This document shows, in pieces, positions 34,312 to 36,311 of a stretch of DNA of 43,190 nt (positions within the stretch are counted from its first letter, which is position 1; every line of letters starts with the position of its first letter). The translations under genes and the position numbers were made by a program. The notes beneath the pieces were generated by a model, which saw only the letters and a program-made list of their open reading frames with translations, did no database searches and had not been told where the DNA came from. The stretch is from Verrucomicrobiales bacterium (lineage in GTDB: Bacteria; Verrucomicrobiota; Verrucomicrobiia; Limisphaerales; UBA9464), in contig JAIYBC010000055.1 in assembly GCA_027488845.1 (NCBI GenBank), positions 1 to 43,190 of the forward strand, read 5' to 3'.

Positions 34312-34659
34312 CTAGCCCGGTCGGACGACCTCCACCGAGACATGGCGGGCCTCCGGCAGGATGAACTTCTTCACCTCCACCCGGACCTTTCGTGGGTGGA
34401 ATTCCGTCAGGACCATCGAAGACAGGTCGCCGGCCAGCCTCTCGATCAGCTTCCACGAGCGGCCGTCGCCGAAGGCCAGGATGCGCCGGCTCACCGCGTA
34501 GTAGTCGATCGTCCGGGACAGGTCGTCGCCGTCCGCCGCGGGGCCGAAGTCGTGCCAGAGGTCCACCGAGATCAGGAGGCGCTGGGCGTTGGCACGTTCG
34601 GAGTCGGGCACGCCGACGTGGTAGGTGACCTCGAGGTCAACGATGCGGATGATGTCCAT
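34312..34659 (-). CDS. folB: Dihydroneopterin aldolase
   Basis: 115 residues, the normal FolB length. Family landmarks are I-x-D-L-x-V near residue 5, [14 protein letters not shown] near 16-29 with the conserved Glu21, DYYAVSRRI near 52-60, and LIERLA near 71-76. A lysine pair (VKKF) lies near 96-99 where FolB has its catalytic lysine. It cleaves 7,8-dihydroneopterin to 6-hydroxymethyl-dihydropterin and glycolaldehyde in folate synthesis. The ATG lies 23 nt inside the end of the HAD-Nudix gene, which implies translational coupling. Confidence 0.92.
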
Positions 34660-35713
34660 TCTGGTGGTCGATGGCCGCGAGCAGCAGCCGGGTGGGGGTG
34701 TTGAGGGGCAGCGCGTCGGCCTCGCTGCGGGTGAGCCAACGGAACTCCTGTGCCTCGGAATTGAGGCGCACCTGCTGTCCGGGAAGCGCGACGCAGGTGT
34801 AGTTGAGCAGCAGGAAATGGGCGTCGCGGTAGAATTCCGGCGGTCTCACCGCGTCCTGCACCATCACGAAACGGATGTCGCGGACTTCCAGCGCGGTCTC
34901 CTCGAGCAACTCCCGTCGCAGGGCGGCCTCCGAGGGTTCACCCCATTCGATCTTCCCGCCCGGGATCCCCCATAGCCCGGACCACTTCGCGGTCCGCACG
35001 AGCAGCATCCGTCCCTCCTCGTCGAGGACGAGGGCTCCCACGGTGGGTATCGGATGACGCGGCCGTGCCGCGATCGCCCCCAGTCGGAGCCCGGACTCTT
35101 CGAGGTGGCGGCGGAGTTCCCGGAGGTTCTCCACGATCAGGTCGGGACGGCTTTCCCGAAGCTGTCCGAGACTGTTGTAGCCGGTGAGCACCGCCACCGA
35201 CCGGATGCCGCCGTGCCGCGCGGTCTCGATGTCGTGCTGCATGTCGCCGATGAACACCGTCTCGGCGGGGTCGAGTCCGTTTTCCTCCAGAACAAGGCGG
35301 ATCCGTTCCTTCTTGTCGTGGACGCCGAGGTAGGAGCGGTCGAGGTATCTTCCGAATCCCGTGGCCCGGTCCTGGACCTCGAAGTGTTCCGGATGCACCG
35401 CGCTCAGCAGGAATGTCCGGAACCCCTTTTCCCTGCAGTATCTGAGGAAGTCCTCCGCATGGGGCAGGGGAACCACCGACTCCTGGACCTGACGGAAGCG
35501 TTCGTGGAACCACGTCTCCAACTGGGGCAGCGGAACATGGGGCACGCGCTCCTCGTAGAATCCGCGGAACGGAAGCCGGAACTCCGTCCGGAAGGCGTCC
35601 AGGGTCATGGGCTCGACTCCGGAACGCTCGAAGGCGTGGTTCGAGGCGTGCCAGACCGCCGGCAGGTCGTCCACCAGGGTGCCGGACCAGTCGAAGATCA
35701 CGTTGCGGATCAC
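34637..35713 (-). CDS. HAD-family phosphatase fused to Nudix hydrolase
   Basis: 358 residues from a GTG start with AGGGTG about six bases upstream. The N-terminal HAD domain (about 1-210) has motif [10 protein letters not shown] with nucleophile D8 but Ser10 where most HAD phosphatases have the acid/base Asp. Motif II is Ser104, motif III the Lys in DKKER, and motif IV GDMQHD at 156-161. The C-terminal Nudix domain (about 221-350) has a near-complete box, G253-x5-E259-x7-REL-x-EE. The 3' end overlaps folB by 23 nt. I infer a role in removing phosphates from dihydroneopterin triphosphate; HAD-Nudix house-cleaning of other nucleotides is the alternative. Confidence 0.88.
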
Positions 35714-35777: not shown

Positions 35778-36311
35778 TCAACGTGCCGCGTCCAGTACCG
35801 TCATCAGCTTCCATGCGGCCTGCATCGAGGGGAACGCCAGGTCCTCGGCCGCGACTTCGACGGGATCGTACCAGTCCGCCGCGCCCACCTCTTCTGGATC
35901 GATCCGGAGCGTCCGGTCGGTGGTCGTCGCCGTGAAGAACAGGTCGAGCACCGGATAGGTGACTTCGCGGAACCGGTATTGGTTCGGCTGCGAACAGAGG
36001 AAACCCACCTGCTCCAGCCGGATCCCCAGTTCCTCGGCGATTTCCCGTCCGACGGCGTCCTCGGCCCGTTCCCCGATGTCGATGAACCCGCCGGCCGGGG
36101 CCAGCCGACCCTTCGCCGGATCCTTCCCGCGCCGGATCAGCAATGTGCGGCCGTCTTCCCGACGGATGAACACGGCGACGGCAACCGCGGGATTGAAGTA
36201 GTAGCGGAAACCGCAACCCGGGCAGTCGAAGGGTTGAGCCGGCGACGTCGTCGTGGACGTCCTGGGCCGGGCGCAGCGGGGACAATGGAGGAAGAATTCC
36301 GAGGGATGCAT
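35778..36311 (-). CDS. Zinc-ribbon Nudix hydrolase
   Basis: 177 residues from ATG 36311; the frame stays open upstream but overlaps the divergent Tat protein gene and has no similarity there. The N-terminal zinc ribbon has C10/C13 and C30/C33, and the perfect Nudix box G75-x5-E81-x7-REI-x-EELGI spans 75-97. The arrangement recalls NudC-like NADH pyrophosphatases, but the protein is shorter and lacks the NudC SQPWPFPxS signature; a CSQPNQYRF phrase occupies a similar place. Substrate unknown. It lies 64 nt upstream of the HAD-Nudix gene on the same strand. Confidence 0.88.
   Translation of the reverse strand: MHPSEFFLHCPRCARPRTSTTTSPAQPFDCPGCGFRYYFNPAVAVAVFIRREDGRTLLIRRGKDPAKGRLAPAGGFIDIGERAEDAVGREIAEELGIRLEQVGFLCSQPNQYRFREVTYPVLDLFFTATTTDRTLRIDPEEVGAADWYDPVEVAAEDLAFPSMQAAWKLMTVLDAAR

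Follow-up and report, generated by a model that had tools for sequence, protein, structure and literature searches.

Introduction

Bacterial FolE2 makes dihydroneopterin triphosphate. Conversion of this compound to the monophosphate has been assigned to Nudix enzymes, NudB in Escherichia coli and FolQ in Lactococcus lactis, in passages of two reports (PMC1971073, PMC5389931), the former of which places L. lactis folQ in a folate gene cluster. The same passages of PMC1971073 (2007) ascribe removal of the last phosphate before dihydroneopterin to a non-specific phosphatase, and mention a Bifidobacterium longum protein in which FolB is fused with an internally duplicated FolK. The ‘unidentified phosphatase’ in a pterin figure legend of a 2026 review concerns tetrahydromonapterin, so we left it aside for the folate step (PMC13259868). 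In the open-licence literature, which mostly excludes subscription papers, we found no paper that assigns a gene to a dihydroneopterin-monophosphate phosphatase, nor any that describes HAD-FolB or HAD-Nudix-FolB fusions.

Here we analyzed a stretch of 43,190 nt from a 5.39 Mb genome of a Verrucomicrobiales bacterium (hereafter, the window), in which one protein carries a HAD and a Nudix domain. Unlike E. coli NudB and L. lactis FolQ, this Nudix domain shares its polypeptide with a HAD domain and is linked to folB. The B. longum FolB-FolK protein, as the cited passage describes it, offers a likeness in that enzymes of the pterin branch are united in a single polypeptide; in the family described here, by contrast, it is the upstream dephosphorylation domains that are joined to FolB.

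Results

The HAD-Nudix gene overlaps folB

Three genes lie in a row on the minus strand. The NudC-like Nudix gene comes first and is separated by 64 nt from the HAD-Nudix gene, which in turn overlaps folB by 23 nt.

35778..36311, minus strand: second Nudix gene, NudC-like, with a zinc-ribbon-like N-terminus by eye (ORF call, Pfam)
34637..35713, minus strand: HAD-Nudix fusion gene, 358 aa, GTG start (ORF call, Pfam, 80 relatives, alignment, AlphaFold model)
34637..34659, minus strand: overlap of the HAD-Nudix and folB reading frames, 23 nt
34312..34659, minus strand: folB, dihydroneopterin aldolase, 115 aa, with E21, Y53, E73 and K98 conserved (Pfam, nearest solved structures, conservation over 92 rows)

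A sequence-only reading of the window had seen a HAD and a Nudix domain in one protein, a near-complete Nudix box, an overlap of 23 nt with folB and a second Nudix gene 64 nt upstream. This description held throughout. Pfam HAD_2 matched residues 5-175 of the protein with 66.1 bits (cut-off 23.8) and PF00293 NUDIX matched residues 222-339 with 85.1 bits (cut-off 21.1), and the positions of the overlap (34637-34659) and of the second Nudix gene (35778-36311(-)) were confirmed. Pfam also places PPIase and DAHP synthase genes further downstream of folB, and of the 80 relatives described below just two, the near-identical L002 and L003, had these neighbours in the flanks that were retrieved.

The HAD domain has a PGP-like fold and an altered motif I

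The AlphaFold model of the full HAD-Nudix protein had a mean pLDDT of 91.6 and a pTM of 0.66. The features of its HAD half are as follows.

35099..35713, minus strand: HAD domain, residues 1-205 (Pfam), with a helical C1-type cap at about residues 16-85 (from the secondary structure of the model)
35666..35695, minus strand: HAD motif I segment, residues 7-16, with the nucleophile D8, Ser10 in place of the canonical Asp, and D16
35231..35248, minus strand: HAD motif IV GDMQHD, residues 156-161, with D157 and D161 in 110/110 rows

PGP-like HADs, annotated as phosphoglycolate phosphatases, topped both the sequence and the fold matches of this domain and are its nearest solved folds (3sd7: VIA-align Z 23.8 over 202 residues, rmsd 2.1). 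It shares with PGP-like HADs of subfamily IA (3sd7, 2ah5, 2hsz) the fold with C1 cap, motifs II-IV and the nucleophile Asp, and differs from them in the Ser at position +2 of motif I, the invariant Asp16 and the genomic partner FolB. Motif I of the window protein reads DWSGT, so that the second catalytic Asp is absent, a point missing from the sequence-only reading.

We aligned 110 HAD rows, including near-copies and leaving out L001, a second copy of the window. D8, S10, D16, K134, D157 and D161 were present in 110/110 rows and D15 in 106/110, and residue 104 was Ser in 91 rows and Thr in 19. Cys replaces the Ser (DWCGT) in one later row, a three-domain fusion of genome G311 (L193 467-2050(+)). 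The two PGP-like solved relatives that were aligned across the motif, 2hi0 and 2ah5, have Asp at this position, and the second Asp of motif I is the general acid/base of ordinary HAD phosphatases according to a passage in PMC8069645. The domain thus has the fold, motif II (Ser/Thr), motif III (Lys) and motif IV (acidic) of the HAD superfamily and the nucleophilic Asp of DxDx[TV] HAD phosphatases but not their second motif I Asp; because Ser10 takes its place, we file the protein as a HAD-superfamily member only and not as a canonical DxD phosphatase. Asp16, invariant across the alignment and more so than D15, is a candidate stand-in for the missing general acid/base. In the cap, N25, F41, L47 and P48 are invariant and R42 is present in 106/110 rows; these residues are possible substrate contacts.

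The capped HAD fold also resembles that of phosphonoacetaldehyde hydrolase, PhnX (2iof, Z 19.1). PhnX has a non-Asp residue at motif I +2 and uses a Schiff-base Lys in its cap. The HAD domain of this study, in contrast, has no invariant Lys in the cap (residues 16-85) and scores 35.5 bits against a cut-off of 220 for TIGR01422, which places it outside the PhnX family.

The Nudix domain keeps its catalytic residues

34697..35050, minus strand: Nudix domain, residues 222-339 (Pfam; model; best structural match NudI 6dt3)
34889..34957, minus strand: Nudix box, residues 253-275 (sequence)

Modeled alone, the Nudix domain had a mean pLDDT of 93.0. Its top structural match was NudI 6dt3 (Z 18.9, rmsd 2.0, 130 residues), and its nearest solved relatives are of the NudI, MutT and NUDX1 types. 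The metal-binding residues of the box GX5EX7REUXEEXGU are present and did not vary in either of two alignments, one of 46 rows (out of 81) and one of 17. The box is indeed near-complete, in that the catalytic residues are kept and Ala274 replaces the last Gly in the window protein; relatives show Gly, Ala, Asn or Asp at this position.

The NudB structure 2o1c ranked at row 30 by sequence profile against this domain (E 1.4e-7) and was not among the best 50 structural matches, which excludes nothing. Among the best 25 of 43 matches at E 0.01, the NudB model NF006961 (cut-off 103 bits) did not match the window protein, which a second search with the model did not list either, and the HAD-Nudix proteins of five other genomes scored 21.2-29.5 bits against it; in this, the domain differs from NudB, lying under the cut-off of the NudB model. 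Across the 15 pathway genomes described below, NF006961 gave weak matches in all 15 and none over the cut-off, but only 1/14 controls passed, so that this result carries little weight on function.

A search for a stand-alone relative of this Nudix clade in ten HAD-FolB or HAD-alone genomes returned weak matches only, the best being 4.8e-12, vs ≤3.5e-59 in six HAD-Nudix genomes; a genome without FolB and HAD gave 3.1e-13. Since the ten genomes lack this clade, their pyrophosphatase must be something else. Two findings make the folate role of the Nudix half less certain than that of the HAD half: the clade is missing from the HAD-FolB and HAD-alone genomes searched, and the nearest solved relatives are of NudI/MutT types.

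FolB and the pterin branch

The folB product of the window scored 85.6 bits with Pfam FolB (cut-off 31.8) and exceeded the cut-off of NCBIfam folB_dom; with the equivalog TIGR00525 it reached 65.2 bits, under the cut-off of 72.15. Its nearest solved structures are dihydroneopterin aldolases. G16, E21, R22, Q26 and Y53 were conserved in 92/92 rows (L001 again left out), E73 in 91/92 and K98 in 90/92, the remainder being gaps; these correspond to active-site residues by the numbering of other species. By Pfam domain and active-site residues the protein is therefore a dihydroneopterin aldolase (FolB), falling short of TIGR00525 alone.

We surveyed 15 genomes for pathway genes, picked by hand so that the architectures were represented along with two genomes lacking FolB. 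FolE2 and FolK were each found in 15/15, and canonical FolE in 0/15 by a search that was positive in 11/14 controls. In the genomes checked, FolK and FolE2 lay on other contigs or distant from the HAD gene. No Nudix box was found near FolE2 (0/15 loci), and one was found near folK (L150, among the 15 loci L142-L156); we discounted the latter because it looks RppH-type by eye. Two genomes of the genus with HAD-FolB fusions, G113 and G196, have neither FolB nor this HAD, yet keep FolE2 and FolK.

folB is the constant neighbor of the HAD-Nudix gene

A contig scan kept 80 loci out of 200 relatives, all with the two-domain architecture. Titles name Verrucomicrobiota or one of its subgroups in 79 of them, many being Pedosphaera or Limisphaerales, and L054 is titled “bacterium”. 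Nine contigs of MAGs titled ‘Akkermansia muciniphila’ (L003, L005, L015, L024, L034, L044, L049, L070, L079) carry HAD-Nudix of the Pedosphaera/Limisphaerales type, that of L003 being 96% identical to the window; these record names look wrong.

With domain profiles built for this study, folB was found on the same strand within 200 nt of the HAD-Nudix gene in 66/80 loci. The gap had a median of 12.5 nt and ranged from -23 to 164 nt, and the two genes overlap in nine of the 80. In two further loci folB lay at 409 and 1448 nt, and in ten there was no folB in the fetched stretch, which in one of these, L043, has just 785 nt downstream; the contig runs out after 316 nt in L010 and after 14 nt in L077, and these two were set aside. 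Whole-genome searches for the twelve loci without nearby folB found FolB elsewhere in 10/12. As a control, we clustered every ORF of 100 aa or more that lay within 4 kb, leaving out a 31-locus cluster that is an antisense shadow of folB. folB was present in 65 loci, and the next real family, the upstream NudC-like Nudix, in 13/80. This difference argues against general gene-order conservation. The NudC-like gene, found upstream in just these 13 loci, was rejected as a member of the module and is probably a loosely kept neighbor.

We then took an order sample of 136 genomes and counted the HAD family in it at an E value of at most 1e-40. This sample shares members with the 80 loci, so the two sets are not independent (L043/G380 with G329 and L059/G381 with G241 have FolB at identical places). 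HAD was present in 123/136 and FolB in 122/136 (121 over the curated cut-off); 118 genomes had both, five HAD without FolB, four FolB without HAD, and nine neither. The Fisher p value for this co-occurrence, 3.7e-8, is inflated by kinship and by shared contigs in incomplete assemblies. In 111/123 HAD genomes, representing 55/58 families, the FolB match followed on the same strand within 300 nt downstream. This was the case for 99 of the 107 full HAD-Nudix matches; for the remainder, FolB was at 307 to 1485 nt (three), on another contig (three) or not found (two). Sixteen matches were HAD-only, with FolB adjacent in ten, elsewhere in two and not found in four. G351 and G360, where the match is in pieces, were tallied apart and are both adjacent to FolB. 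Two HAD-Nudix matches contain an in-frame stop (G357:C20:11283-12332, TAG; G338:C307:5263-6333, TGA), which may only be the genuine end of the gene close to the C-terminus, across which the profile continued.

The sequence-only reading was staked on a recurrent folate-gene neighborhood. Such a neighborhood exists, far beyond chance, for folB (111/123 genomes, 65/80 loci) and is reinforced by the fusions described next; in the genomes checked, folK and folE2 are located elsewhere and are not part of it.

Fusions and distribution in the phylum

In three genomes from three families (G270, G311, G305; loci L192, L193, L194), HAD, Nudix and FolB are encoded in one uninterrupted frame of 516-528 codons, with Nudix between HAD and FolB in all three. 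G311 consists of one contig; the other two genomes are incomplete, G270 at 78% and G305 at 57%.

Of 240 genomes in a sample of the phylum, 34 had the HAD family at an E value of at most 1e-40, all of them from one class. A HAD-only profile recovered the same 34 at E 5e-80 or better, the next match being 1.7e-30, which marks a sharp family boundary. Among these 34 genomes, 19 have a HAD-FolB fusion, five have HAD-Nudix with an adjacent folB, and four have HAD alone beside folB; G178 has one HAD-Nudix gene without folB within 3.8 kb downstream, and five genomes of one family have a lone HAD and show no folB across the 8.5-8.7 kb that were retrieved. FolB was present somewhere in the genome of all 34. 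The HAD-FolB fusions are confined to one family (label f3), 18/19 of them to one genus, which by inference is probably Akkermansia. L128 (4094-7665) belongs to the HAD-alone family f4. Its HAD gene sits beside a LOG-like gene, and the opposite strand holds a homocysteine methyltransferase/methylene-THF reductase-like gene (both named by eye), another one-carbon context.

None of the second-tier HADs lay within 5 kb of FolB (0/38, these being the 38 of 58 that could be compared with listed FolB places). FolB was also present in 184 of the 206 phylum-sample genomes without this HAD; the HAD is thus not required for FolB in general, and those bacteria solve the step differently. A simple regular expression for HAD or Nudix motifs found none in the 1.5 kb flanks of FolB in 30 loci from genomes without the HAD, and a plasmid search for the family gave no match at 1e-15.

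In a tree of 55 HAD domains (of 110 HAD rows; midpoint root, three long-branch rows, SH-aLRT support only), HAD-Nudix occurs in both halves, and at least three changes of architecture are needed. A simple story would be an old HAD-Nudix/folB operon from which Nudix was lost in several lines, the remainder being fused.

Discussion

The sequence-only reading had proposed that the HAD-Nudix protein performs both dephosphorylation steps before FolB, and the genomic patterns support it. In the pathway that we propose, the starting compound, dihydroneopterin triphosphate, would come from FolE2, the Nudix domain would strip pyrophosphate from it to leave the monophosphate, and the HAD domain would take off the last phosphate via a phospho-aspartate on the nucleophile Asp8, with Asp16 or another group replacing the missing general acid/base Asp. 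FolB, encoded by the adjacent or overlapping gene or fused, would then cleave dihydroneopterin. The HAD step is assigned from the constant company of FolB, including the fusions, and the Nudix step from the fusion to HAD and the precedent of Nudix enzymes at this step in passages of PMC1971073 and PMC5389931. We put the probability that HAD-Nudix is a module devoted to dephosphorylation in the pterin branch, carrying out both steps together on these putative substrates, at roughly 0.68. That HAD and FolB are functionally linked we regard as highly probable. What we observe directly is the architecture, the linkage, the fusions, the conserved residues and the presence of FolE2 and FolK genes; the substrates of the HAD and Nudix domains, and any hand-over between them, are inferred.

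The serious rival to this reading, although we judge it improbable, holds that FolB directly cleaves the dihydroneopterin monophosphate made by Nudix, and that the PGP-like HAD destroys the by-product glycolaldehyde phosphate. In its favor, the HAD domain finds its top matches in sequence and fold among PGP-like proteins, FolB scores under the equivalog cut-off of TIGR00525, HAD accompanies FolB even where there is no Nudix, and an archaeal protein, PF1278, annotated as ‘dihydroneopterin monophosphate aldolase’, makes a route through the phosphate conceivable; however, a passage in the same source assigns PF1278 to the PTPS family (PMC5041015). PGP-like folds, moreover, act on many substrates, and the aldolase residues are kept in FolB. 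The PTPS family has a different fold from FolB. Another unlikely reading leaves the HAD half alone in the folate pathway and takes the Nudix half for a sanitizing or other nucleotide hydrolase, fused by chance of position. The absence of Nudix from the HAD-FolB and some HAD-folB lineages and the NudI, MutT and NUDX1 types of its nearest solved relatives speak for this, but the Nudix catalytic residues are invariant, the three triple fusions retain Nudix between HAD and FolB, and HAD-Nudix occurs on either side of the midpoint root in the tree, which needs three or more architecture changes.

We consider it very unlikely that HAD is a slow or dead phosphatase that assists FolB by binding pterin phosphates or by acting as a scaffold. 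The replacement of the second motif I Asp by Ser in 110/110 rows, and by Cys in one later row, would suit such a role, yet D8, K134, D157 and D161 in 110/110 rows and a residue 104 that is always Ser or Thr would be unexpected in a dead domain, and the equally invariant D16 could stand in; with the catalytic residues so conserved, a dead HAD was rejected as the main reading. Least probable, to the point of being almost negligible, is conserved gene order with no functional link: although the phylum-sample genomes with the HAD are all of one class and share ancestry, other neighbors are kept in at most 13/80 loci, the spacing is tight, and two kinds of fusion join FolB, which already largely refute it. 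On the neighbor clustering and the fusions, chance synteny was rejected.

Beyond the module itself, we see about even chances for a wider proposal: that the DWS-motif proteins are a new HAD family of dedicated dihydroneopterin-monophosphate phosphatases using another residue, Asp16 being the candidate, as acid/base, and that in Verrucomicrobiota they join a Nudix pyrophosphatase and FolB in one-, two- and three-domain proteins. These would cover three consecutive steps from dihydroneopterin triphosphate to hydroxymethyl-dihydropterin, with intermediates possibly passed on directly. The domain families are known; their assembly is new and is a candidate for a step without an assigned gene. The DWS motif offers a test case for a HAD enzyme working without the usual second Asp, and a FolB-linked gene family makes the phosphatase gap directly assayable with few proteins, including ready three-domain fusions.
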